This document shows, piece after piece, positions 1-13,809 of a DNA stretch of 64,000 nucleotides; positions within the stretch are counted from its first letter, which is position 1, and each line of letters opens with the position of its first letter. Location: the NCBI GenBank assembly GCA_944326555.1, contig CALVEK010000003.1, forward strand, positions 1-64,000, written 5' to 3'. This DNA is from Candidatus Gastranaerophilales bacterium (GTDB lineage: Bacteria > Cyanobacteriota > Vampirovibrionia > Gastranaerophilales > Gastranaerophilaceae). Made by a program: the position numbers and the translations under genes. A model generated the notes under the pieces. That model saw nothing but the letters and a program-made list of their open reading frames with translations. It ran no database searches and was not told the DNA's origin.

Positions 1-3000
1 TCTGCGTGTTGGAATGCGTAGTTAAATGTTTGCACTTGGGTTGTATATGCACCTGCTTGGGTTGCTACGCTTGGGGCTACTACTGCAGGGTTAAAGTCTT
101 CGTGGGTTCCTGTTGAGCCTCTTGTAAACATGAAGTATCCCAATTTATCTTCAGAATTTACTGCGTAGCTTACGTCGTATTTATAGATTGGCGAGTATGC
201 TGTGTTAGTTCCTTTGTATGATGTTGGAGATTCTCCTGTAAATACAACGCTGTTTGCCAATGGTTCATCTGCAAAGAGAATTTTTACGCTTTCTTTTTCC
301 GTTGTTGAAAGCAAGTTAAGGTTATTTACATTAAGGATAGCATCATTTGTTATATTGTATGTATCTGCTGTAATTCTATCCATTGTTTCATTCGCAAGGT
401 CGACATCTACAGAGAGGTCTGTTGTTCCTGCAAGATTCAATGTAGGAAGGTGCATTGTTCCTATTGTATTGTTATTAAGGTACATTGTACCTGAATTGAG
501 GGTTAATGATTGAGAGTTGTCGAGTAAGTTTTCTTTGGACAAGTAAAGGTTTATATTATCTAATGATATGTTTGCGTTATTGATATTGTTGTTTACAGTG
601 ATTTTTGATTTGTCATCTCCGTTTAATTTAAGGCTATATCCTTGAGTACCGTCTATGATGTCGGATAGGACAATTTCGCCGGAGTTTAGAGAGTTCATGG
701 TTATTGTTTTATCGGCATTGTTCATTTGGATAGCTTGAGTATTGCCGGAGAACTCTGATTTTGCACCATCTGCTGTTACGTTTATATCTACGTTAGATTG
801 TATTGCTGTACCTTGAGTATCTTTAAATGATACGTTTGTAAGGTTAACGACTGAGTTTGCATTTTGGGCTTTTATTACAAAGTCTTTAGCGTTTTTGATT
901 ATTGTATCTTTGATGTTTAAAGTAGTTTCGTTTTGAAGGTCAAACATTTTGTGGTTGTTTGCATCTATTGTTGATGGTGTAGATTTGCCAAGGCCGTTTA
1001 TATTCAATGTGCCTTTGCTTGTTATTTCAAGGTCTTTTGTTGCAATGTAGTTGTCTGTTGTTCTGAATGTAAAATTGCGTTCGTCTGTTGTTTCTTTTGT
1101 TGTTATTACGTCTAATGTGTCATAAATTTTGTCTTTAATAGTTATACTGTCGTTTGTTGTATTTGTTGTAGAAAGTTCAATTGCACCTGCCTCTGATATT
1201 ATTTGATCATTATAGACTGTAGTATCAACAACAGGCAGTGTTATTATATTTTCAGTAAGAGCAAGTTGAAGTGCATCTGATTGAGTATTTAAGATTTGGA
1301 CAGTTACAGGAGTTCCTTCATATTTGCCAATGAAGTTAATAAGGTTTATAGTTATTGTGCCTGATGAAGTGTTTTGAGTTGTAATTGTATCTGCTATTTT
1401 GTCAGTTAGGCTAACATCTATATTTAATTTTGTATCATTTGCTGCCATTGATACAAAGTTGTAATCTCGAGTTTCATTGTTAGCAAAGTCAACAGTTATG
1501 TTATTTGATATAACTTTAGCGTTTTCTACATCGTTGTAAAGAGATACAGTACCTGTACCATCACCTGTTAAAGCTAAGTTATATGCATGATCTGAGGTTT
1601 CCCAGAATGTAGTATTATAAGAACTAAAATAATAAGACCCGCCTGAGATTGCATCATCTATTTGGATTTTACCGTTGTTTACAGCATTAAGTGTAAATGT
1701 TGTATTATGTTTTATAGTACCAGATTTATCGGCATAATTAGCAACATAGATCGCATTATTTTCTTTTACTCCGTTAGATTCCGTATAGTTGCCTGAGATT
1801 AAAGAAGTGCCGTTATCAGCGTTTAAGGTAAGGTTATAGTTAGTAAATATAGCACCGCCTTTTGCCATATCTGTGCCTGTTTGAGATATAGCAAAGTTGT
1901 TTAAGAAATTGCTGTTTGTAAGATCAATTGTTGCATAATTGTTGTTATAAATCGCTCCGCCATAGGCACCTTTTAAATTTGATTGAGCGTAGTTCCCAAT
2001 AAAATCACCAGTGATATTTCCAATTGTATCGCTATTATAAATCGCTCCGCCATAGGCATTAGCATACGACCCAGTACCAGTTGATTTAGCATAGTTGCCT
2101 ATAAAATCACCTGAGATATTTCCAATTGTTCCATCATTACAAATCGCTCCACCAGAGCTATAAGAAGAACTTTGGGCATAGTTTCCCATAAAACTGCTTG
2201 TGATGTTGCCAATTATTGCATTACTTCCATAGTTAAAAATCGCTCCGCCTTTGGTATAAATATTTGAGTTTGTACCAGATGCTTTAGCGTAGTTGCCTAT
2301 AAAATCACCTGTAATAGATTCGATTATTGCAGTACCTGTATCAGCATAGTTATAAATCACTCCGCCATATGCCTTGCTAGAACCTTTAACGTAGTTTCCT
2401 ATAAAATTTCCTATAATAGATTCGATTGTCGATGAAAAGTTTAAAAGAACTCCGCCTAGGGCAGAAGAACCGCTAGTGTAATTGCCAATAAAATCACCTG
2501 TGATAGATTTAATTGTTACTGAATAGTTATAAATCGCTCCACCACTGGCATTAGCATACGACCCAGTACCAGTTGATTTAGCATAGTTTCCAATAAAATC
2601 GCCTGTTATATTTCCAATTCTTCCTTTATAGCTATAAATCGCTCCACCTTCGCCAGAAGAGTTAGAATCAGATTGAACATAGTTGCCTATAAAATCTCCT
2701 GTGATATCTCCAATTCTTCCTGTTGAACTATAGTTATTTCCAACGTTATAAATAGCTCCACCATAGGCATTAAAATCAGGCCCAGTAGCAGATGTTAGAG
2801 AATAGTTGCCTATAAAATCACCCGTGATATCTCCGATTGATCCATAGTTATAAATCGCTCCGCCTTTGGTATCAGCGTACGTGTATGACATTGTGGTAGC
2901 ATTACTTTTAGCATAGTTACCTATAAAATCAGCTTTTAGATCTCCAATAATACCTGTATTTGCTAAAGCTCCACCGGAAGCATTCGTATATAAACGTCCG

Positions 3001-3959
3001 CTTGTTCTTGATGTAGTTGAATCAATACCGTTATTTACAAATGCACCTGAGATACATGTTATATCACCTGCGTTATAAACAGCTCCGCTCAGTACATCTG
3101 CATATTTATAATCTGATGTATTTGAAGTTATTGTTGCAGTTATTATATTATCTTTGAATAAAACATTGTCTATTTCAGTAGTAGAACCGCTTTGGTTATT
3201 TACTGCAGCTCCGCCCTCTATTATTGTATGGTTCGATGACGTACCTGATGGGTTTTTTATTGTACCTTTATTAAGTGTATGAGTTTCTTTTTTTAAAAAA
3301 TCAGATTCTGAATACTTGTACGTTATAGTTTGACCTACAGGTGTTGTCGGGTTTTGTTTAAATTCGAGGTTTCCTGTACCAGCATTCTTTTCCCAACCAA
3401 AGGTTAAGATTTTACTTCCATTTGTGTTTCCATATTCTGTTTGTTTTAGTGAAACATAATAGTATTTAGGCGTAACTGTTCCATCTGCATTTTTATCATA
3501 AAGGGTTATAGTATTAGGCTCGTCTGCCGACGTAGCTTCTAGCAGCGTATAACCTGAATCTTTTAATTTACTCGAATCATAGGTATAATATTTGCTATCT
3601 GGGGTTGTATAAAGCGCTTTATCTTGAGTTGTTTCTATTAACGCTACGCTTCCTGTTGAAGAAAGCAATTGAAGAACATCTTTATTATCCGCTGGCGTAT
3701 AGTAATATTTTTTATCTCCTATATTAACCGTTATTGCTCCATCAGGAACTGTTGTATCCAGTTTAACTTCCGTTAAGCTATATGTTGAATAATTAGTATT
3801 TAAAAATGACGATTGTTCTGCTTTTACCCTATCCAGTGTAGGAGTCGGTACATCTGCAAACACAGTCGCATTAGAAAGCAGGCTCAACAATACAGCTAAA
3901 AGAGGAAGAAGCATTACATTTATGACTTTTTTATCTGTCCAACTATTGATTTCGACCAT
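1..3959 (-). CDS. Large secreted repeat protein, autotransporter/adhesin-like, partial (C-terminus outside window)
   Basis: The reading frame is open from an ATG at 3957-3959 to the left edge, about 1319 codons. A GAGGG ribosome site lies about 10 bases upstream. The first ~35 residues form a signal peptide: a charged start, a Leu-rich core, and a likely cut after VFA. Residues ~330-700 (DNA ~1980-2950) hold about ten copies of a unit with core ITGDFIGNYAKS, each preceded by a GGAIYN segment. This is the beta-helix style of polymorphic outer-membrane and autotransporter passenger domains. The rest is Asn/Thr/Asp-rich with similar short strands. The last visible stretch (FNPAVVAPSVATQAGAY) has no family I can name. 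Export and surface display are inferred; the anchoring domain is not in view. It is transcribed divergently from the LdpA operon. Confidence 0.85.
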   Translation of the reverse strand, partial: MVEINSWTDKKVINVMLLPLLAVLLSLLSNATVFADVPTPTLDRVKAEQSSFLNTNYSTYSLTEVKLDTTVPDGAITVNIGDKKYYYTPADNKDVLQLLSSTGSVALIETTQDKALYTTPDSKYYTYDSSKLKDSGYTLLEATSADEPNTITLYDKNADGTVTPKYYYVSLKQTEYGNTNGSKILTFGWEKNAGTGNLEFKQNPTTPVGQTITYKYSESDFLKKETHTLNKGTIKNPSGTSSNHTIIEGGAAVNNQSGSTTEIDNVLFKDNIITATITSNTSDYKYADVLSGAVYNAGDITCISGAFVNNGIDSTTSRTSGRLYTNASGGALANTGIIGDLKADFIGNYAKSNATTMSYTYADTKGGAIYNYGSIGDITGDFIGNYSLTSATGPDFNAYGGAIYNVGNNYSSTGRIGDITGDFIGNYVQSDSNSSGEGGAIYSYKGRIGNITGDFIGNYAKSTGTGSYANASGGAIYNYSVTIKSITGDFIGNYTSGSSALGGVLLNFSSTIESIIGNFIGNYVKGSSKAYGGVIYNYADTGTAIIESITGDFIGNYAKASGTNSNIYTKGGAIFNYGSNAIIGNITSSFMGNYAQSSSYSSGGAICNDGTIGNISGDFIGNYAKSTGTGSYANAYGGAIYNSDTIGNITGDFIGNYAQSNLKGAYGGAIYNNNYATIDLTNSNFLNNFAISQTGTDMAKGGAIFTNYNLTLNADNGTSLISGNYTESNGVKENNAIYVANYADKSGTIKHNTTFTLNAVNNGKIQIDDAISGGSYYFSSYNTTFWETSDHAYNLALTGDGTGTVSLYNDVENAKVISNNITVDFANNETRDYNFVSMAANDTKLNIDVSLTDKIADTITTQNTSSGTITINLINFIGKYEGTPVTVQILNTQSDALQLALTENIITLPVVDTTVYNDQIISEAGAIELSTTNTTNDSITIKDKIYDTLDVITTKETTDERNFTFRTTDNYIATKDLEITSKGTLNINGLGKSTPSTIDANNHKMFDLQNETTLNIKDTIIKNAKDFVIKAQNANSVVNLTNVSFKDTQGTAIQSNVDINVTADGAKSEFSGNTQAIQMNNADKTITMNSLNSGEIVLSDIIDGTQGYSLKLNGDDKSKITVNNNINNANISLDNINLYLSKENLLDNSQSLTLNSGTMYLNNNTIGTMHLPTLNLAGTTDLSVDVDLANETMDRITADTYNITNDAILNVNNLNLLSTTEKESVKILFADEPLANSVVFTGESPTSYKGTNTAYSPIYKYDVSYAVNSEDKLGYFMFTRGSTGTHEDFNPAVVAPSVATQAGAYTTQVQTFNYAFQHA
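1980..2950 (-). repeat. In-frame tandem repeats of the large secreted protein
   Basis: About ten copies of an imperfect coding repeat lie here. The DNA core reads like tagttgcctataaaatcacc on the plus strand and encodes GDFIGNY. Spacing is irregular (about 80-130 bases) because the linkers differ in length. Two copies (near 2070-2120 and 2540-2610) share a longer identical stretch encoding KSTGTGSYANA, which suggests recent duplication or gene conversion between units. Confidence 0.8.
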
Positions 3960-4091: not shown

Positions 4092-5060
4092 ATGCTCAAG
4101 GATTTATTTGTTGCAAAGAAGTGTTTTAAGTTGGTGTGTGGTGCAGGTAATGAGGATGCAGCCGAGGTTGAAAAGTTAGTTGCACTTTATTCATTAGCCG
4201 GTTGTAATTTCTTTGATTTATGTGCAAAACCAGAGATTGTTGACGCAGCAAAGAGAGGTCTTGCTTACGCCGGTATTTGCGATGACAGGTATTTGTCCGT
4301 AAGTGTTGGTATTCAGGGCGATCCTCACGTTAGTAAGGCTGCAATTAATCAAAATTTATGCAAAAATTGCTCAGCTTGCCGGAAAGTTTGTCTGCAAAAT
4401 GCAATCCAAGATAATGAAAGTTCTCACTTTGTAAACAAAACCAGATGTATTGGCTGTGGTAAGTGCATTTCTGTGTGCCCTTTTGGCGCTATTAGCATAA
4501 CAAGCGAATTTAAAGATTTAAAAGAAGTACTTCCACCTCTTATCGCAAAAGGAATAGATTGTATTGAATTGCACGCACTAGGTGAGAATGAACAGGAAGT
4601 TGAAGATAAATGGAATGATATAAACAGTTGTTTTGATGGTTTATTGAGTATATGTATTGACCGTTCGAAACTTGGTAATGAAAAATTACTAAAAAGAGTT
4701 AACAGAATGCTAGAGTGCCGTAAACCTAACTCTACAATTATTCAAGCCGACGGGGCACCTATGTCGGGTGGCGATGACGATTTTAAAACAACTTTGCAAA
4801 CTGTTGCCACTGCAGAAATATTCCAAAATGCAAAGCTCCCTGTATTTATCCTTTTATCAGGTGGAACAAATTCTAAATCTACTGAATTGGCAAAGCAATG
4901 CGGTATAGTTGCACATGGGGTTGCTATTGGTTCTTATGCAAGAAAAATTGTAAGAAAATATATTGATAGAGAAGATTTTTTAGAAAATAAAGATGTATTT
5001 AATGAGGCACTTATTATTGCCAAAAATCTTGTTGATACATCGTTAAAATATATGGGTTAA
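4092..5060 (+). CDS. ldpA: LdpA-like [4Fe-4S] protein
   Basis: 322 residues, ATG start with AAGGGGAG just upstream. The N-terminus (FKLVCGAGNEDAAEVEKL then YSLAGCNFFDL) matches my memory of cyanobacterial LdpA (light-dependent period A). Two ferredoxin-type clusters follow: CKNCSACRKVC near residue 90 and CIGCGKCISVCP near 119, each able to hold a 4Fe-4S cluster. The C-terminus has the LdpA-type segment LSGGTNSKSTELAKQCGI followed by GSYARKIV. In Synechococcus LdpA is a redox-active protein linked to the circadian clock. No Kai-type protein is visible here, so the role is probably redox sensing or catalysis. It is the first gene of a run of six, one base from the next. The family call is fairly firm, the role is not. 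Confidence 0.75.
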   Translation: MLKDLFVAKKCFKLVCGAGNEDAAEVEKLVALYSLAGCNFFDLCAKPEIVDAAKRGLAYAGICDDRYLSVSVGIQGDPHVSKAAINQNLCKNCSACRKVCLQNAIQDNESSHFVNKTRCIGCGKCISVCPFGAISITSEFKDLKEVLPPLIAKGIDCIELHALGENEQEVEDKWNDINSCFDGLLSICIDRSKLGNEKLLKRVNRMLECRKPNSTIIQADGAPMSGGDDDFKTTLQTVATAEIFQNAKLPVFILLSGGTNSKSTELAKQCGIVAHGVAIGSYARKIVRKYIDREDFLENKDVFNEALIIAKNLVDTSLKYMG

Positions 5061-5061
5061 G

Positions 5062-5817
5062 ATGATTTCTGTTATTAGTAATGAAAATAAATTTTCGGAT
5101 ATAGATACTGTACTTTTTGATAAGGACGGTACATTTATTGATTCGCACGTATATTGGGGCAGAATTATTTCAAGACGTGCAAAGAGTATAATAAAATTTT
5201 ATAATCTGGATAATTCTCTTTTTAAAAAATTGTGCTTTGTAATGGGTTATGATTTAGATTTATGTCGTTTGATTGAGGCCGGGCCAATTGCTCTTTTACC
5301 TCGCAGTGATGTTATCAAAGTCCTTAAAGATTTTTTATTTAGTATCAATATTGATGCCAATATAGATGATTTGGTAGTTATTTTTGATGAAGTACATTTG
5401 AAATTTGCAGATGAAATGTTTGATTATATAAAACTCCTAGACGGAGCAGTTGAGCTTTTTGACAAATTAAAATCACACGGAGCAAAATTAGCAGTTGTTA
5501 CCTCTGATTCCGTATCAAATACAGAAAAAATCCTTGATTATTTTAAAATAAGTGGTTATTTTGATACTGTTATTGGTAAGGACTCCTGTGTCGAACCTAA
5601 AAGAACTGGTATCCCTGCTTTGTATGCATTGGAAAAGTTAGGCTCATTACAAGACAATACTATTGCAATAGGCGATGCAAAAATGGATTTTGATATGGCT
5701 AATACTGCAGGATTAAGAGGTTCAGTTCTTGTTGCAACAGGACAAATTCCCTACAACAAGCTGAAATTATACTCTGAATTTTGTGTAAATTCTTTAAGGG
5801 AGATTGATATTAAATGA
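5062..5817 (+). CDS. HAD-superfamily phosphatase
   Basis: 251 residues. HAD motif I is FDKDGT near residue 20 (nucleophile Asp and acid/base Asp). Motif II Thr/Ser lies in AVVTSDS, the motif III Lys in EPKRTG, and motif IV is GDAKMDFDMA. The inserted helical cap between motifs I and II is of the phosphoglycolate-phosphatase (C1) type. It probably removes phosphate from a small sugar or acid intermediate of the operon's pathway. The start is one base after the ldpA stop, and its own stop overlaps the next start by four bases, so it is translationally coupled. The substrate cannot be read from sequence. Confidence 0.8.
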   Translation: MISVISNENKFSDIDTVLFDKDGTFIDSHVYWGRIISRRAKSIIKFYNLDNSLFKKLCFVMGYDLDLCRLIEAGPIALLPRSDVIKVLKDFLFSINIDANIDDLVVIFDEVHLKFADEMFDYIKLLDGAVELFDKLKSHGAKLAVVTSDSVSNTEKILDYFKISGYFDTVIGKDSCVEPKRTGIPALYALEKLGSLQDNTIAIGDAKMDFDMANTAGLRGSVLVATGQIPYNKLKLYSEFCVNSLREIDIK

Positions 5818-7532
5818 CTGTAAAAATTCTGGATTGTACGATAAGAGACGGCGGACACCTTAATGGTTGGAATTTTTCAGATGAACTTGTCAGAAGTGCT
5901 TATTATTCTGCATGCAAAAGTGGTGTGGACTACTTTGAAGTCGGTTATAGATTCAAGTCTCCTAAAGAAGGCTTTGGAAAGTTTGCTAAATGTAGTGATG
6001 AGTATTTGTCAAAATTGTTTGATGTCAAAGATGATTGTAAGTTGACTGTAATGATTGATGCAGGAAAGTCTGACACAAATGAGTTTGTAGATCGTAATAA
6101 AGATTTAACACCTATAAGAGCTGTCAGAGTCGCTTCTTATCCATATGAAATTGAAACTGCACTAAGACAATGCGAAGAACTTAAAAACAAAGGCTATGAA
6201 GTTTTTCTTAATCTAATGGTTATATCTGAGTACAAAGATAATGAGTATGAAATTTTGAAAAACTGGAATAACAAAGATATTCTCGAAGCATTGAGTTTTG
6301 CAGATAGTTTTGGTTCTTTTATTCCTGATGACATAGTTAAATATGTCGGTAAGTTGAAATCAATCGGATATTCTAAGATTGGATTCCATTCTCACAATAA
6401 CTTACAGCTGGCTTTTGCAAATGCATTAAAAGCAATCGAATGTGGAGCTTACATTGTTGATGCTTCTGCTTTTGGTATGGGGAGGGGTTCAGGAAATCTT
6501 CCTATTGAAATACTTACTGGCTATTTGGAAAAAACAGGAGTAAACAAATATAATCCTGTTGCTTATATTGATTTAATTGACAGGTTCTTCCTTGAAGAAA
6601 ACAAGAAAACTCCTTGGGGGTACAGAATTCAATCATTGATTGGCGGCTTAAAGAACATTCATCCTTATTATGTCGATGGTTTGTACAAAAAACATCTGTA
6701 TACTATCAACGAGGTCTGGAATGCCGCCGAATTGGTCAAAAATAATTGTCCTATTTCTTTCAATGAAAAGGAAATGAATAATATTTTGTCAGACAGATTT
6801 GTTAATTATGATGACATAAGTATTATTAATAAAATTCCAATAACACCGGCTAAAGATGCTTTTTGTCAAGGCAAACCGGATTTTGTGAATCTTTACCAAG
6901 ACAGAAATTTTCTTATCATTGCTAATGGTCAATCAGTCAGTGATTATAAAGATGAAATTTTAAAATTTATTAAAGATAAAAATTGCGTTACTATTGGTAC
7001 AAACTTTTTGAATAATTTGTATACACCTGATTTTCATTGTTTTGTTAACAGGAAAAGATTTCTTAAATATGTCAATTCAGTTTCACCAACAAGTACACTT
7101 TTGCTACCATCATTCATGGGTAGAGAGTTTGTAGTACAAAATACAAATAACATTGCGATGTTTTTTGACGTTAGACTAACTGACAATTCCTTATATAATC
7201 TTTTTTCTGACTATAGGCATAACTACCTTGGGGTGAATGTTGCGATTAGTGCGATATACTGTGCTATACAGATGGGTGCAAAAGAAATATTTGTCGCTGG
7301 CATGGACGGATTTGGCAAAAATGCTCAGCATATTGATTATTTCTATAAAGAGGCTGATACGGAAGAAGATAAAAAGTTATTAATAAGAGCTTATGAAACC
7401 TTGTCAGAAGATTTGAAAAGAGTTAATACTTATCTTGAAAAGTCATCAATTCCTTTTTCTATAATTACGCCAACATCACATAGTATGTATTACAAAAATC
7501 AAATTGGAGTTAATAATGTCGTTAAAATATGA
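5814..7532 (+). CDS. DRE-TIM (HMGL-like) aldolase fused to an MptE/DUF115-like domain
   Basis: 572 residues. Residues 1-~290 are an HMG-CoA-lyase-like TIM barrel: LDCTIRDGGHLNGW carries the D-x-T-x-RDGG metal and substrate signature, and GFHSHNN supplies the metal-binding His pair. The relatives are 4-hydroxy-2-oxovalerate aldolase and 2-isopropylmalate synthase. Residues ~345-572 are a second domain starting FLIIANGQSV and containing FVAGMDGFGKNAQHIDYF. This recalls the MptE/DUF115 and family-42 sialyltransferase-like Rossmann fold, which handles nucleotide-activated substrates. The fusion suggests that carbon-carbon bond formation or cleavage is joined to use of an activated sugar or alcohol. 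The barrel is confident; the second domain is tentative. It overlaps both neighbours. Confidence 0.75.
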   Translation: MTVKILDCTIRDGGHLNGWNFSDELVRSAYYSACKSGVDYFEVGYRFKSPKEGFGKFAKCSDEYLSKLFDVKDDCKLTVMIDAGKSDTNEFVDRNKDLTPIRAVRVASYPYEIETALRQCEELKNKGYEVFLNLMVISEYKDNEYEILKNWNNKDILEALSFADSFGSFIPDDIVKYVGKLKSIGYSKIGFHSHNNLQLAFANALKAIECGAYIVDASAFGMGRGSGNLPIEILTGYLEKTGVNKYNPVAYIDLIDRFFLEENKKTPWGYRIQSLIGGLKNIHPYYVDGLYKKHLYTINEVWNAAELVKNNCPISFNEKEMNNILSDRFVNYDDISIINKIPITPAKDAFCQGKPDFVNLYQDRNFLIIANGQSVSDYKDEILKFIKDKNCVTIGTNFLNNLYTPDFHCFVNRKRFLKYVNSVSPTSTLLLPSFMGREFVVQNTNNIAMFFDVRLTDNSLYNLFSDYRHNYLGVNVAISAIYCAIQMGAKEIFVAGMDGFGKNAQHIDYFYKEADTEEDKKLLIRAYETLSEDLKRVNTYLEKSSIPFSIITPTSHSMYYKNQIGVNNVVKI

Positions 7533-8271
7533 TTTAAAAGTTAATAAGCAAAAATTTGGTACTTGGTGTATTTTACCGAGTCCCGAATGTGTTAATGTTT
7601 TGTGTAAATCAGGACTTGACTTTGTGCTAATTGATATGGAACATAGCCCTGTCGAGTTTATTACTGCACAAAAAATGGTTATGGCTGCTCATGCCGAGGG
7701 AAAAGAAGCAGTTGTAAGGGTCGGAAAGCTAGATGAATTAGCAATATTGAAAGCTCTGGATATCGGTTCTGACGGCATTATGGTCCCTCACGTTGAATCA
7801 AAGGATGATATTGATAAAATTGTATCTTTTGCAATGTATCCTGCTTGTGGTATTCGTGGATATTCTCCATACACCAGAGCTGGTGGATATTGTGTAAAGG
7901 ATAATTATACCTATGATGAGAACAACCGTATATTTATTAGTGTAATCATTGAAAGCCAAAAAGGACTTGATAATCTTGATGAAATCTTGTCTAACCCCTA
8001 TCTCGATATGATATATCTCGGTCAGTATGATATATCAATTGCATTAGGTCATCCTGGAGAAATAAATCACCCCGAGGTTATCTCAATAGTAGAAAATTGT
8101 GTTAAAAAAGCAAAAAAAGCGGGTAAAGCAGTAGGTGCTTTATATCATACAAAAAAAGATTATGAATATTTCACAAAAATTGGTGTAGATTTTCTTGTTT
8201 ATAAAGTTGATACAGCTATAATAAATGATGGCTTGCGGGAAGTTAGAGAGGTAATAAAAATAAATGACTAA
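7516..8271 (+). CDS. HpcH/HpaI-family aldolase
   Basis: 251 residues from ATG 7516. The upstream TTG at 7504 is part of the TTGGAG ribosome site, so I reject it as start. Family marks are DFVLIDMEHSPVEF (metal/base region), VPHVESKDDI, and GIRGYSPYTRAGGY, close to the class II pyruvate-aldolase pattern of 2-dehydro-3-deoxyglucarate and HpcH aldolases. ESQKGLDNLDEI supplies the metal-binding Glu, and the later YLGQYDIS the usual Asp. The reaction is probably reversible aldol addition of pyruvate or a keto acid to an aldehyde, giving a 2-keto-3-deoxy acid. It overlaps the upstream gene by 17 bases and the next by 8. Confidence 0.85.
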   Translation: MSLKYDLKVNKQKFGTWCILPSPECVNVLCKSGLDFVLIDMEHSPVEFITAQKMVMAAHAEGKEAVVRVGKLDELAILKALDIGSDGIMVPHVESKDDIDKIVSFAMYPACGIRGYSPYTRAGGYCVKDNYTYDENNRIFISVIIESQKGLDNLDEILSNPYLDMIYLGQYDISIALGHPGEINHPEVISIVENCVKKAKKAGKAVGALYHTKKDYEYFTKIGVDFLVYKVDTAIINDGLREVREVIKIND

Positions 8272-10045
8272 TGTTTCTGAATATATTATGGACAGACTAT
8301 CTGATGAGGGCGTAGAAAAAGTTTTTATGGTCTCAGGTGGTGGCGGTATGTTTCTTATCGAAGCACTCGGAAATCATCCTAATTTACAACATGTATGTAA
8401 CCATCATGAGCAAGCTAGTGTTATGGCCGCAGAAGGTTATCAACGTGCGACAAGAAACCTCGGTGTTGCATTGGTTACTACTGGGCCAGCTGCAACTAAC
8501 ACATTAACAGGTGTTTGTTGTGCTTGGAATGATTCTATACCAATGCTTATTCTCTCAGGACAAGCCAAAACAAAGACTCTTATTGGTGATACAGGTATGA
8601 GACAAAGAGGAACCCATGAAGTTAATATTGTTCCAATTGTCTCATCTGTTACCAAATATGCGGTAACTATAAAAAATCCAAACGAAATAAAATATCATCT
8701 GGAAAAAGCTATATATCTCGCTAAAAACGGTCGTCCAGGACCTGTCTGGCTGGATATTCCTCTTGATGTTCAGCAAGCCCAAATTGAACCTGACAAATTA
8801 GATGGATTTATTCCAGATACACAACCAATTTATGATTACAAGTTAGATGAATTATTCAATCTGATAAAAATTGCTAAAAGGCCAATATTTATCGCAGGTT
8901 ACGGTTTAAAATTAAGTAAAACCGATAAATTGTTTTTAGAGTTAGCAAAGGAATTTAATATTCCCATTGTTACGCCCAAAAATGGTTTTGACACTGTTGC
9001 TGATGACAATCCTCTACTTGCAGGTAGAATTGGTATCAACGGTCAAAGAGCAGGTAATATTTCTGTACAAAATGCAGATTTAGTCATTGCCTTAGGGGCA
9101 AGGTTGCCTTTGGTTACAGTTGGATACGAAACAAATTTGTTTGCACCAAATGCTAAAAAGGTTCTGATAGATTGCGATGATGCACAGTTAGAACATTGCC
9201 ATATAGCTTTAGATTTAAAAATTAAAGCTGACTTAAAAGATTTTATTCCTGCTTTTTTAGATAGGTTAAGAGCTGAAAAGTTTTCATACAATTCTTCTAA
9301 GTGGGTTCAAAAGATACAGGATTTAAGAAAACGATTTCCTGTTATAACAAATGAAATTGTTAATCAGAAAAAGTATGTAAATTCATATTACTTCTTTGAT
9401 ATTTTATCTGATTTTATGAATAAAGATGATGTGTTGGTTACAGATCAGGGGGCAACCTTTTACTCCTTTACGACTGCTTTTAAAGTTAAAGAGAATCAAT
9501 TGGCCTACACAAACGGAGGATTCTCTCCTATGGGATATGGATTACCTGCATCAATTGGTTCTTGCTACGGTCCGAATGTAAGTAGAGTCGTATCTGTTAA
9601 CGGTGATGGCGGGTTGCAAATGAATTTGCAAGAATTGCAGACTGTAAAGCATAATAACTTGAATCTAAAAATATTTGTTTTTAATAATGAGGGATATCTT
9701 AGTATAAAACACACTCAAAATTCATTTTTCAACGGGCATTTTGTTGGAAGTGATCCTAAAAGTGGTGTTTCATGCCCTGATACGATTAAGCTCGCAAAAG
9801 CGTACGGCTTCAGACATTACAGGATTAAAAGAAATTCAGATGTAAAAGGTGTAATAAAAAAAGTAATGGACTACAAAGGTCCGGTTATGGTTGAGGTCTT
9901 GATTAATCCTTTACAACCATTTATGCCAAAGGTATCATCAAAGCGACTTGAAGATGGTACAATGGTATCTACACCGATTGAGGATATGACTCCGTTTATT
10001 TCAAGAGAAGAACTTGAAGAGGTTATGACAAATGAAGAAAATTAG
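8264..10045 (+). CDS. Thiamin-diphosphate enzyme, acetolactate-synthase-like
   Basis: 593 residues with the three-domain ThDP layout. The N-terminal PYR domain carries the activating Glu in HHEQASVMAAEGY. A central Rossmann domain includes FIAGYGLKLS. The C-terminal PP domain holds the cofactor motif NGDGGLQMN, about 25 residues before NNEGY. The family includes acetolactate synthase, YerE and other ligases that attach a ketol unit to a sugar or aldehyde. No small regulatory subunit (ilvN) or other branched-chain amino-acid gene lies nearby, and both neighbours are aldolase and glycosyltransferase genes. A specialised role in sugar or keto-acid synthesis is therefore more likely than valine synthesis (inference). 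Confidence 0.8.
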   Translation: MTNVSEYIMDRLSDEGVEKVFMVSGGGGMFLIEALGNHPNLQHVCNHHEQASVMAAEGYQRATRNLGVALVTTGPAATNTLTGVCCAWNDSIPMLILSGQAKTKTLIGDTGMRQRGTHEVNIVPIVSSVTKYAVTIKNPNEIKYHLEKAIYLAKNGRPGPVWLDIPLDVQQAQIEPDKLDGFIPDTQPIYDYKLDELFNLIKIAKRPIFIAGYGLKLSKTDKLFLELAKEFNIPIVTPKNGFDTVADDNPLLAGRIGINGQRAGNISVQNADLVIALGARLPLVTVGYETNLFAPNAKKVLIDCDDAQLEHCHIALDLKIKADLKDFIPAFLDRLRAEKFSYNSSKWVQKIQDLRKRFPVITNEIVNQKKYVNSYYFFDILSDFMNKDDVLVTDQGATFYSFTTAFKVKENQLAYTNGGFSPMGYGLPASIGSCYGPNVSRVVSVNGDGGLQMNLQELQTVKHNNLNLKIFVFNNEGYLSIKHTQNSFFNGHFVGSDPKSGVSCPDTIKLAKAYGFRHYRIKRNSDVKGVIKKVMDYKGPVMVEVLINPLQPFMPKVSSKRLEDGTMVSTPIEDMTPFISREELEEVMTNEEN

Positions 10046-10976
10046 TATTGTTACTGCGTGTTATAACGAAGAAGCTAATATTCGTGATTTATACATTCAA
10101 CTTAAGCGTGTACTTGCTTCTCTTGACAAATATAGCTATGAGATTATAGCTATAGACAATAAATCTACTGATAAAACTGCTGATATATTAAGAGAAATTG
10201 CAACTGAAGATAAAAATTTTAAGGTAATTCTAAATTCAAAAAACTTTGGTCCTGTAAAGTCTCCATTTTACGCAATGCAACAAAGCAGTGGTGATTGCAT
10301 GGTTTATTTGGTATCAGATTTGCAAGATCCACCGGATGTTATTCCTAAGCTCATTGAGAAGTGGGAAAATGGTGCCAAAATAGCTGTAGCAGTTAAAGAT
10401 AAAAGTAAAGAATCTCCTTTAATGTGGTTTTTTAGGCAACTGTTTTATAAATTTATTTCTTATACGGAAATGGAAAGCTCAAACATTATAGAAAACTTTG
10501 CAGGCTTTGCTTTATATGATAAGAAAATTGTTGATATCATGAAATCTTGCGATGATCCAAATCCTGAGATAAAAAGTTTTGTTTCGGATGTCGGTTTCGA
10601 TGTTGAAATTGTTAAATATACCCAATCTGCAAGACAAAAAGGTAAATCTACATACAATTTGATGAGATTATACGGTTATGCAATGACAATAATTACCAAA
10701 AACTCTTTCTTCCCAATAAGATTTGCGACTTTTGCCGGTTTCATCTTATCCATACTCAGTTTTTTAATTGCAATTTTTTATTTTGTAATGAAACTACTCT
10801 TTTGGAATGAGTACAACATAGGAATGGCATCATTGATTATTGGTTTGTTCTTCTTTTCTGCCGTTCAATTGTTTTTTATAGGTATTATTGGTGAATATAT
10901 TGCCGCCATATACACAAGAGTCAATAAAAGACCACTTGTAATAGAAGAAGAAAGGCTTAATTTTGATGATAAATAA
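10032..10976 (+). CDS. Family 2 glycosyltransferase with two C-terminal membrane helices
   Basis: 314 residues. The GT-A start ISIVTACYNEEANI is followed by the metal site VSDLQDPPDV (DxD-like) and the later QSARQKGKSTYNL acceptor region. Two membrane helices lie at ~230-255 and ~270-295. This layout matches ArnC, GtrB and DPM1 enzymes, which transfer a sugar from a nucleotide donor to undecaprenyl phosphate at the inner membrane. It overlaps the ThDP gene by 14 bases and ends the operon, suggesting that the product of the upstream enzymes ends in an envelope glycan. Confidence 0.85.
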   Translation: MKKISIVTACYNEEANIRDLYIQLKRVLASLDKYSYEIIAIDNKSTDKTADILREIATEDKNFKVILNSKNFGPVKSPFYAMQQSSGDCMVYLVSDLQDPPDVIPKLIEKWENGAKIAVAVKDKSKESPLMWFFRQLFYKFISYTEMESSNIIENFAGFALYDKKIVDIMKSCDDPNPEIKSFVSDVGFDVEIVKYTQSARQKGKSTYNLMRLYGYAMTIITKNSFFPIRFATFAGFILSILSFLIAIFYFVMKLLFWNEYNIGMASLIIGLFFFSAVQLFFIGIIGEYIAAIYTRVNKRPLVIEEERLNFDDK

Positions 10977-11124: not shown

Positions 11125-12420
11125 CTATTTAAATTGACCTTCCATTATTTCAGATGTATATTTTGCGACAGCTTCGCCCATCGAAAAACATGAAGTTTGT
11201 ATTCTCAATGCTGCTTGTGCACTAAAATCGGCAGACACGTTTCTACCTGCAATAAAAAGATTATCATAATCAGATGACATCAAACATTCTATAGGCAACT
11301 CATAATCAACACTTGAGTGCTGTAATGTCGAGCTGTCTTTTTTATATGAATGTATATCTATAGGATAATCTGCATGTAATACAGGATTTTTTATTGAAGT
11401 ACCTGATAAAATATCGTTTTTTGTATAAATTTTCTGGCCTTGAACTCTTCTTGACTCTCTTATACCAACCATATCTGCAATATTAGATATGTATGCTTCT
11501 TCAAATCCGGGGAAATATTTGCGCAAAAATGAATAAATACGCCATATTTGCTCTCTTGCTTTTATCAAAGCGTTAGACATGTCATAAGGGTTAAGTGGGT
11601 CTATATCCTCTCCTATAAGGATTCTAGGGCAATTTAGCGAAATAGTCCCAGACATACCCGGGATAGTAAAAATCTGGAAATAAGATGCGTCTTCTTCTGT
11701 AATATCGCCATTTTTAATGCCTTTTTCAAAGATAGGCCATAACGCCCAGTTCTTGTCCTTATCCCAAGTACAAGCAGTAGACAGGTGTATTTCTCCATCT
11801 ATCTTGCATGATGTGGTAACATTCCTATCTTTATCAAAATCTAAAAGCCAATTTGAAAATTTTTCCAAATTGATATTTGATATGTGAAAACGAAGTGTCA
11901 TCGGCTGTCTCGATAAATTATTTTCTAAAATTTTATTTTTTAAAATTGCAGAAAAATTTGCATCACCGGTTGCGTCCACAAAATAAGACGATTCGATATA
12001 TAATGATAACATTTTTGAGGATACACAAATAGCTTTAACATGATTTTTATCTGTAATGCCACTTTGGATTTCTGTATCATATAGTATATTGCAACCTACT
12101 TTCTTCATCATTGAATCAAGTGCAATTTTCGTAAGCTCTGGGTTAAACCAACCCGTATTACCATCTTCGTAGGTTATTTGGCCACCATAGCATTTTAGCT
12201 CATTAATAAAATCAGTTAAAAATTCGCAATTAATATCATTAGTATTAGACTTCATTGCAGGCATAACCAAGGCAGATGTAATAGTACCACCGAGATGTAT
12301 ATTTTTTTCTATAATTAGAGTTTTTAGTCCTTTTTTTGCTGCAATATAACCTGCGGCACACCCTGCAGTACCACCACCGCAAACTACCAAATCATACTTA
12401 TCATTAACATGAGATTGCAT
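11125..12420 (-). CDS. FAD-dependent oxidoreductase (FAD_oxidored type)
   Basis: 431 residues. The N-terminal dinucleotide fold is VVCGGGTAGCAAGYIAAKKG with the ribose-binding Glu in TLIIEK, followed by LGGTITSALVMP. The second FAD contact YFVDATGDANF and the C-terminal LFIAGRNVSADFSAQAALR (flavin contact) complete the pattern. This is the flavoprotein group often annotated PF12831, whose substrates are mostly unknown. The start overlaps the upstream methyltransferase by 17 bases, so the two are co-translated. The pairing echoes MnmC, in which a methyltransferase is fused to a flavin oxidase, but this flavoprotein is of another family than the MnmC oxidase. Confidence 0.75.
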   Translation of the reverse strand: MQSHVNDKYDLVVCGGGTAGCAAGYIAAKKGLKTLIIEKNIHLGGTITSALVMPAMKSNTNDINCEFLTDFINELKCYGGQITYEDGNTGWFNPELTKIALDSMMKKVGCNILYDTEIQSGITDKNHVKAICVSSKMLSLYIESSYFVDATGDANFSAILKNKILENNLSRQPMTLRFHISNINLEKFSNWLLDFDKDRNVTTSCKIDGEIHLSTACTWDKDKNWALWPIFEKGIKNGDITEEDASYFQIFTIPGMSGTISLNCPRILIGEDIDPLNPYDMSNALIKAREQIWRIYSFLRKYFPGFEEAYISNIADMVGIRESRRVQGQKIYTKNDILSGTSIKNPVLHADYPIDIHSYKKDSSTLQHSSVDYELPIECLMSSDYDNLFIAGRNVSADFSAQAALRIQTSCFSMGEAVAKYTSEIMEGQFK

Positions 12421-13546
12421 CGTTATTCTCCTGCTTATTTTTTGAAAAATTTTTTATAAACTTACTGGATGATTCTAAATTAGAATTTTGGCGTCTTTTA
12501 TTATAATCATCAATAATTTCTTTAGCTGTAGAATTAAGATTTTCATCTTTATAATAAATTCCCGCAGTTGTGTTAATTAAACCAAAATCAAAATCAGTTA
12601 ACGGGTGTTCAATCAAAAGAGTATTTTTAGAAGCAATTGTACCGCTGCTGCGTCCACTCGTATCAAAAATTTTGCCTACATAAAATCCTGCATCAATAAG
12701 AGCATGTCTGACGGCAGCTGAATTAGAGTAAGTAACGAGCAGAGAATTATAAGAAGACAATTTATAGAGTTGTTTAAAAAAGTCAATTGACCAAAGAGTA
12801 GGAAGTTTTGACGGTGTAAAAGCATCAAGAAATATAATGTCGTATTGTTTATCTAGTTTTTGTATAGTAACTCTTGCATCATCAAAATGAGGGTTTATAG
12901 TAACATCCTTTAAAATACGTTGTTTTGAGGTCGTTTTCATGCGTTGCGATATACAGTGATAATATATATTATGTAAAAAGGCTTTATTGTGTCTTAATAT
13001 ACTATAACTATACCCCCAATATTTATATTTTTTAATTAAACTGTTATAAAATGGTTCAAAATATTTTTGATTACTTTTATTTATAAAAATTCGGCTTAGA
13101 GAATTCTTATTTAAAATAATTGAATCAATCAAGGATTTGCATATCACTTGAGATATCTCCGGATATGTTTTAAAATAACCGTCTTTTATAAATGGTGATA
13201 GAAGTACAAGCTCTTTATTATACTCTAGTGCATCAATAAAAACTCTGCCATTATATGATGATGTAATAATTTTTTTTAAAAGTGCTTTGGTGTTATATCC
13301 AATACCGTAGCATATATCTAAGACATTTATCTCCTTTTTGTTAAAAAAGACTTTATCAAAATTAAGAGGTTTTATAAATTTTTGCCAACCTTCATCTTTT
13401 GCCCCAAATATTGAGTGGTAGATATCTTTTACATCATTATTATACAGACCTACTGAGCCATCATTGGTAAATAAGAAATTATATAACTCTTTATTTGTAG
13501 AATCTTTTAGCTTTTTTTCAATAATTTTATCAATTTTATCAGACAT
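12404..13546 (-). CDS. mnmD: MnmD-like tRNA 5-methylaminomethyl-uridine methyltransferase
   Basis: About 380 residues from ATG 13546 (MSDKID). An in-frame extension upstream to 13672 is hydrophobic and unlike the family, so I reject it. The SAM site is NVLDICYGIGYNTKALL, and the motif IV analogue YDIIFLDAFTPSKLPTLW is diagnostic of the MnmC N-terminal domain family (DUF752). TYSNSAAVRHALIDAGF near the C-terminus is also typical. It would methylate the wobble uridine side chain nm5(s2)U to mnm5(s2)U in tRNAs. It is longer than a bare MnmD because of extra Lys/Asn-rich segments around residues 100-200. The tRNA role is inferred from family. Confidence 0.7.
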   Translation of the reverse strand: MSDKIDKIIEKKLKDSTNKELYNFLFTNDGSVGLYNNDVKDIYHSIFGAKDEGWQKFIKPLNFDKVFFNKKEINVLDICYGIGYNTKALLKKIITSSYNGRVFIDALEYNKELVLLSPFIKDGYFKTYPEISQVICKSLIDSIILNKNSLSRIFINKSNQKYFEPFYNSLIKKYKYWGYSYSILRHNKAFLHNIYYHCISQRMKTTSKQRILKDVTINPHFDDARVTIQKLDKQYDIIFLDAFTPSKLPTLWSIDFFKQLYKLSSYNSLLVTYSNSAAVRHALIDAGFYVGKIFDTSGRSSGTIASKNTLLIEHPLTDFDFGLINTTAGIYYKDENLNSTAKEIIDDYNKRRQNSNLESSSKFIKNFSKNKQENNDAISC

Positions 13547-13809
13547 ACATAAATTATAGAATTTAATATCTATTAAGTAAAAAATGTCTCGATATGTTAC
13601 ACAAATGTTATCACAATATAACGACACGATATACAATGATAAAATTATACAAGGAGCAAGTTGTGTTATCATTATATATCGGTTAGTATTAAATATATTT
13701 TGAGCTTTTAAATTTAAAAATTATAATAAACTAAATTTTTTTGGGGCGATGTCTGCTAAAAAACTTTTTCTTATATTTTAAATATAAAAATTGAGTGGAG
13801 AGTCTTATT

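Follow-up and report, generated by a model that had tools for sequence, protein, structure and literature searches.

A candidate mobile cassette, headed by an LdpA homologue, for the carbon branch of a surface sugar in Gastranaerophilales and other bacterial phyla

Introduction

What does a homologue of the cyanobacterial clock protein LdpA do at the head of an operon of biosynthetic genes? The question is raised by a stretch of 64,000 nucleotides (nt) of DNA, referred to below as the window, which corresponds to positions 1 to 64,000 of contig CALVEK010000003.1 of a Candidatus Gastranaerophilales bacterium (assembly GCA_944326555.1; genome of 2.08 Mb, 99.6% complete). At positions 4092-10976 a gene for an LdpA-like protein is followed by genes for a phosphatase, two aldolase-type proteins, a thiamine diphosphate (ThDP) enzyme and a glycosyltransferase. 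The analysis described here makes it likely, though well short of certain, that this operon is a mobile cassette which makes and attaches the carbon branch of a C-4-branched 3,6-dideoxyhexose of the YerE/ErwE type.

Cyanobacterial LdpA has been described as a sensor of the plastoquinone redox state that acts on the abundance of CikA, and a 2026 review still counts its mode of action on the clock among the unknowns (PMC13421787). The protein was reported only in Cyanobacteria after a screen of 11,264 genomes (PMC5520375). No paper linking LdpA with Melainabacteria was found in our literature search.

Results

Organization of the operon

All six open reading frames are on the plus strand and overlap or lie 1 nt apart. 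Pfam supports each family proposed for them in a first-pass annotation of this DNA, whose description of the layout is confirmed. The LdpA-like protein (4092..5060, 322 aa) has LdpA_C and Fer4 domains, with LdpA_C scoring 75.8 bits (cut-off 22.2) and two 4Fe-4S motifs; its gene is the first of the conserved cassette. After a gap of 1 nt comes a HAD-type phosphatase (5062..5817, 251 aa; HAD_2, DxDGT motif intact). The next gene (5814..7532, 572 aa) encodes a fusion of a DRE-TIM domain similar to 4-hydroxy-2-oxovalerate aldolase (HMGL-like, 67.5 bits) with an MptE-like domain (PF01973; residues 355-498, 6876..7307; 36.2 bits, cut-off 34.6). It is followed by a class II pyruvate aldolase of the HpcH/HpaI type (7516..8271; HpcH_HpaI, 127.9 bits, cut-off 25), a YerE/JanthE-like ThDP carboligase (8264..10045, 593 aa) and a GtrB/ArnC-like family 2 glycosyltransferase (GT2) with C-terminal membrane helices (10032..10976; Glycos_transf_2). 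For HpcH a start at TTG 7504 is possible, ATG 7516 being the likelier one; counted from that ATG, the four junctions after the first overlap by 4, 17, 8 and 14 nt. Because promoter-like (36) and terminator-like (4) sites across the region showed no excess over shuffled sequences, it is the overlaps that argue for a single transcript.

The ThDP enzyme belongs with YerE-like carboligases

The only PDB match of the window ThDP enzyme under 1e-80 is JanthE (8rph), aligned end to end with 439.6 bits. With an alignment profile, JanthE scored 624 bits versus 401 for the best acetolactate synthase. Three TPP domains are present, and the catalytic E49 and the GDG motif (G447-D448-G449) are invariant in 13 ThDP sequences. 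JanthE is a YerE-like enzyme (PMC12188165); enzymes of this kind add 2-keto acids to cytidine diphosphate (CDP)-3,6-dideoxy-4-ketoglucose, and ErwE prefers 4-hydroxy-2-oxo acids as donors (PMC12247030). By these comparisons the window enzyme is a member of the YerE/JanthE-like family, and by analogy with its characterized relatives it would couple a 2-keto acid to a ketone acceptor.

Genes for the acceptor sugar

CDP-4-keto-3,6-dideoxyglucose is synthesized by RfbF, RfbG and RfbH. The three genes are found directly upstream of LdpA in genomes G139, G303 and G228, and one gene away, at a contig break, in G262. In the window's genome RfbF, RfbG, RfbH and an epimerase lie at the end of contig C28. 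Curated NCBIfam models confirmed all three proteins in G139, and RfbG and RfbH also in the window's genome; the RfbF of that genome is truncated at the end of the contig and scores just below its cut-off. RfbH is present in all six genomes of the order that carry the cassette, and no RfbH was found in G019, G021 and G124, in which LdpA-DRE occurs without the cassette. Among 80 loci with YerE-like genes (see below), RfbF-like genes were found within 10 kb at 44 and RfbH-like genes at 50, some weak matches included. The linkage with RfbFGH points to a CDP-3,6-dideoxyhexose with a branch at C-4 as the product. The branched or higher-carbon sugar of the first-pass annotation is supported, and its designation as a sugar acid is not.

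A putative donor module

The DRE domain retains the catalytic Arg and the metal-binding Asp and His residues (D7, R11, H192, H194), which are invariant in 22 sequences. Its best PDB match, by sequence profile as well as by fold, is BVU_2661 of Bacteroides vulgatus (3dxi), an entry titled only 'putative aldolase' that covers its N-terminal domain; 4-hydroxy-2-oxovalerate aldolases were also matched. In catalytic residues and fold the domain thus resembles MhpE/DmpG. Unlike MhpE/DmpG, which are accompanied by MhpF, the fusion scores below the cut-off of the equivalog model TIGR03217 (99.1 bits, cut-off 286), carries the MptE-like domain and stands in an operon without MhpF. HpcH has the PF03328 domain and scores below both GarL/HpaI equivalog cut-offs (166 against 407 and 160 against 369).

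Other YerE-like clusters contain donor genes of several kinds: HpcH-like, 3-dehydroquinate-synthase-like and HAD genes; NeuB and HAD; or MhpE and MhpF. True MhpE and MhpF (4-hydroxy-2-oxovalerate aldolase and acylating acetaldehyde dehydrogenase), scoring above curated cut-offs, stand beside YerE-like genes at L151:6171-8109, L161:11790-13659 and L176:6249-8153, where they are likely to be the donor supply route. LdpA-HAD-DRE/MptE-HpcH looks like one more donor module of such clusters. The 4-hydroxy-2-oxo acids preferred by ErwE are the product class of such aldolases, which fits a donor-making role for the aldolases of the cassette.

Related genes were also seen in other settings. The neighbours of a second DRE/MptE fusion of the window's genome (contig C16; L088:6496-10594) are a KdsB-like cytidylyltransferase and a DegT-type aminotransferase, and this group may belong to an ulosonic-acid pathway. 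Distant fusions, 36-61% identical to the C16 copy, adjoin or lie near YerE-like ThDP genes at L202, L209, L212 and L218; the carriers are Bacterium 1xD8-48, an uncultured bacterium, a Spirochaetaceae metagenome-assembled genome (MAG) and Clostridium thailandense. YerE-like clusters at L166, L184, L203 and elsewhere combine 3-dehydroquinate-synthase-like and HpcH-like genes, often with HAD, and perhaps make a carbocyclic or longer branch.

Proposed pathway

The following sequence of reactions could account for the gene set. The DRE-TIM/MptE fusion, together with HpcH where present, would condense pyruvate with an aldehyde, probably phosphorylated, to a 4-hydroxy-2-oxo acid, as suggested by the aldolase family and the intact catalytic residues. 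The HAD enzyme would take off a phosphate. The LdpA-like Fe-S barrel protein may carry out a redox or dehydration step on the donor or its phosphorylated precursor; this is the weakest step of the scheme. The ThDP enzyme would then decarboxylate the 2-oxo acid and attach the acyl unit at the 4-keto position of CDP-3,6-dideoxy-4-ketoglucose, the acceptor predicted to be made by RfbF, RfbG and RfbH, whose genes are on C28 here and adjacent in other cassettes. Finally, the NAD-dependent epimerase/reductase encoded beside RfbH and the GtrB-like GT2 might finish the sugar and load it onto a lipid carrier on its way to the cell surface.

The cassette in other phyla

To locate related loci, 84,980 species genomes were scanned with the ThDP alignment, and 80 loci were obtained, so that LdpA from outside Cyanobacteria came into view only where it neighbours a ThDP gene. 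The order LdpA-HAD-DRE/MptE-HpcH-ThDP, with gaps of mostly a few bases, was found in MAGs of Candidatus Aquicultor (Actinomycetota), Omnitrophota, Elusimicrobiales (Elusimicrobiota) and Magasanikbacteria. LdpA-HAD-DRE is present at all seven loci with a ThDP identity of at least 53%; the other 73, with identities of 47% at most, all lack it. The non-cyanobacterial LdpA proteins are 56-59% identical to that of the window over the aligned part, and all four score above the LdpA_C cut-off (56-65 bits). These are phyla from which LdpA had been reported absent.

In a quick tree with Shimodaira-Hasegawa-like approximate likelihood-ratio support only, a branch with 100% support separates the ThDP enzymes of the ten cassettes from the 74 further YerE-like sequences included. 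This single, fully supported clade suggests that the five-gene module probably arose once and then spread; by the same comparisons the set appears to have moved between at least five bacterial phyla. Although all four non-cyanobacterial loci are in MAGs, each has its own guanine-plus-cytosine (GC) content (31-54%) and three are on contigs of 52, 182 and 735 kb, which disfavours simple contamination.

GT2 does not follow the ThDP gene in any of the four non-cyanobacterial cassettes. It is a lineage-specific addition outside the conserved core, and its inclusion in the set by the first-pass annotation had to be dropped.

Distribution and mobility in Gastranaerophilales

A cassette was counted as complete when the DRE/MptE fusion adjoined the ThDP gene or was parted from it by HpcH only. 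So defined, it was found in six genomes, from four genera, among 286 of the order: G000 (the window's genome), G014, G139, G303, G228 and G262. The first-five-gene order and tight coupling recur in G014, G139 and G303 as well as in the four MAGs of other phyla, which is more than chance would produce. The expected conservation of the neighbourhood thus holds for the first five genes, which stay together across phyla, and fails for the full set, which is rare in the order. LdpA homologues themselves were found in 92 of 99 relatives.

Within the genus of the window's genome, FAD oxidoreductase, Methyltransf_30, response regulator, Etf and Nad genes mark a common site, which is occupied by the full cassette (G000, G014), by LdpA with a single-domain DRE gene (G019, G021) or by LdpA alone (G003). 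Cassette proteins of the two carriers of this genus are 74% (LdpA), 67% (DRE) and 77% (ThDP) identical, and between genera the values are 75-76%, 58-62% and 64-72%, respectively. For ClpC, in contrast, identities are 96-97% inside the genus and 81-86% for complete matches between genera. Divergence that is similar within and between genera, unlike that of ClpC, fits a variable cassette that would be moving horizontally. A transfer signal from foreign base composition was also considered and rejected, as GC and GC at third codon positions of the six genes are like those of other window genes; the case for transfer consequently relies on phylogeny and synteny.

Several further loci of the order contain parts of the set. 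A second LdpA-like gene of the window's genome, on contig C33 (L055:3547-5294), is 61% identical to that of the window and is followed by a HAD phosphatase gene; the same pair is present in many relatives. In G062, from another family, LdpA heads a different YerE-like operon (L037:3623-9545) with epimerase, HpcH-like, ThDP, GtrA and GT2 genes, in which the ThDP enzyme is only 43-44% identical to that of the window. G228 carries a second YerE-like cluster (L140, contig C39) with RfbF-RfbG-RfbH, a single-domain DRE aldolase, ThDP, epimerase, GtrA and GT2 genes.

In the window, the flank of the insertion site that is kept in the genus is represented by the FAD oxidoreductase gene (11125..12420) and a gene for a Methyltransf_30 (MnmC2-like) protein (12404..13672), both on the minus strand and outside the cassette. 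On the other side, divergent from LdpA, an open frame of 1319 aa on the minus strand (3-3959) runs off the start of the window. No Pfam domain was matched by it, and its DNA has a repetitive look like that of surface-protein genes.

The LdpA-like protein

The ferredoxin insert of the window LdpA (4338..4511, plus strand, residues about 83-140) contains C90/93/96/100 and C119/122/125/129; these eight cysteines are invariant in 41 LdpA homologues. An AlphaFold2 model with a mean predicted local distance difference score of 94.2 and a predicted template modelling score of 0.92 shows a triosephosphate isomerase (TIM) barrel whose third strand is followed by an inserted 2[4Fe-4S] ferredoxin. According to VIA, the barrel resembles ribulose-phosphate epimerase, tryptophan synthase alpha and 2-keto-3-deoxy-6-phosphogluconate aldolase (Z about 17). 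No close structural relative stands out, since Foldseek and VIA both returned many phosphate-binding TIM barrels with similar scores.

With LdpA of the Synechococcus elongatus clock (PMC5520375, PMC13421787) the protein shares LdpA_C, the two [4Fe-4S] motifs and about 36 positions, barrel residues among them, whose conservation is at least 90%. K13, D42, S71, H79, K82, E159, H161, Q218, D220, GGTN 257-260 and G280 are conserved to at least 90% in cyanobacterial, cassette and other LdpA proteins. By secondary structure, most of the conserved residues are on or just after barrel strands. The cassette protein differs from the Synechococcus one by a score far below the clock equivalog cut-off (NF045992: 158 bits for the window and 128-141 in the other phyla, cut-off 450), by a long branch in the tree and by its fixed place in a sugar cassette. 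With cyanobacterial LdpA as the root, the tree places the four cassette proteins from other phyla in one clade (support 99), at the base of the main group of Gastranaerophilales (94). Both groups are set off from other Vampirovibrionia and Cyanobacteria by long branches, which makes the rooting unsure at this point.

A confidently modelled barrel of phosphate-binding type, with residues common to cyanobacterial LdpA, indicates that the LdpA-like protein is probably an enzyme. More specifically, LdpA-type proteins might be Fe-S TIM-barrel enzymes acting on a phosphorylated sugar acid or aldehyde, a metabolic role that the cassette would display in at least five phyla, with clock LdpA as a relative keeping the pocket and perhaps acting via a metabolite; we offer this tentatively, considering it somewhat less probable than its opposite.

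Alternative explanations

LdpA could instead serve the operon without catalysis, as a redox sensor or regulator, which is how the cyanobacterial protein has been described (PMC13421787). Its place is always first in a horizontally moving biosynthetic set, however, in phyla with no described LdpA clock partner; the polar residues on its barrel strands are of an enzyme-typical kind and common to both LdpA groups, and its score is only about a third of the clock cut-off. We consider such a role unlikely. RfbH (E1) normally requires an E3 reductase (DdhD, AscD or RfbI) in the ascarylose and other 3,6-dideoxyhexose pathways, and LdpA, with its eight-cysteine ferredoxin domain, might replace a missing E3 as electron donor in the 3-deoxygenation of CDP-4-keto-6-deoxyglucose. 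RfbH adjoins LdpA in G139, G303, G228 and L144, and PF00970, the FAD domain of E3, is absent from five of the six cassette genomes, the window's included. That absence is not specific, which weakens the argument: RfbH genomes without the cassette often also have no PF00970, or only proteins of 260-290 aa, whose length is more in keeping with PyrK-like proteins than with E3. Moreover, LdpA is paired with DRE in genomes without RfbH, and its barrel has conserved pocket residues of its own, so that electron donation to RfbH appears slightly less probable still than regulation.

A little below these we place the reading that the set makes an ulosonic acid of the 3-deoxy-D-manno-octulosonic or sialic type, corresponding to the higher-carbon sugar acid of the first-pass annotation, which the ThDP enzyme trims or extends. 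Distant DRE-MptE fusions, the C16 copy among them, do stand beside KdsB- and NeuA-like cytidylyltransferases, but a KdsB query matched nothing at the cassette loci L142-L147 and L149, and the cassettes accompany CDP-glucose genes instead. Ordinary acetolactate or amino-acid metabolism with unrelated neighbours is very improbable. The best NCBIfam model of the window ThDP enzyme by E-value is indeed the acetolactate synthase large subunit (TIGR00118), yet its 355.6 bits are below the cut-off of 538.35; the genome has a separate housekeeping IlvB-type paralogue on contig C1, only 29% identical; JanthE is the closest structure; and no amino-acid genes were seen in the cassettes. The earlier view that the ThDP and aldolase genes are outside amino-acid metabolism was upheld.

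Against the proposed branched-sugar cassette itself several observations have to be set. HpcH is dispensable, being absent from the cassettes of G228 and G262. RfbFGH are on other contigs than the cassette in the window's genome and in G014, and no clear RfbH was found within 10 kb of L146. Pairs of LdpA with HAD or with DRE are found in the absence of ThDP or RfbH, which means that LdpA, HAD and DRE are also used outside this pathway; the pairs may be cassette remnants or an older use. No biochemistry was found for any cassette protein.

Discussion

The first-pass annotation knew of no described pathway with this set of genes. The coupling step proves to be of a described kind, that of YerE and ErwE (PMC12247030); the gene set as such was not found described. 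YerE (yersiniose A), ErwE (erwiniose), MMAR_2332 (caryophyllose) and JanthE are YerE-like ThDP enzymes (PMC12247030, PMC12188165), and the cassette agrees with such systems in having a ThDP enzyme nearest to JanthE, linked acceptor genes of the RfbFGH type and aldolases of the class that fits the ErwE donor. It differs from all four in its LdpA-HAD-DRE/MptE-HpcH donor module, which we did not find described for any of them. Most likely, the five-gene set serves to make the side branch of an unusual sugar of the cell surface. With it, the YerE-like branched-sugar pathways, few of whose products are known, gain a further donor module.

The biosynthetic setting of LdpA noted earlier is borne out. 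An LdpA homologue fixed in first place in a sugar operon of four other phyla gives a concrete setting in which to seek an LdpA-type reaction, and the conserved pocket residues are named targets for mutation in Synechococcus. Overall, the data suggest that LdpA-type proteins are metabolic enzymes and not parts of the clock only.

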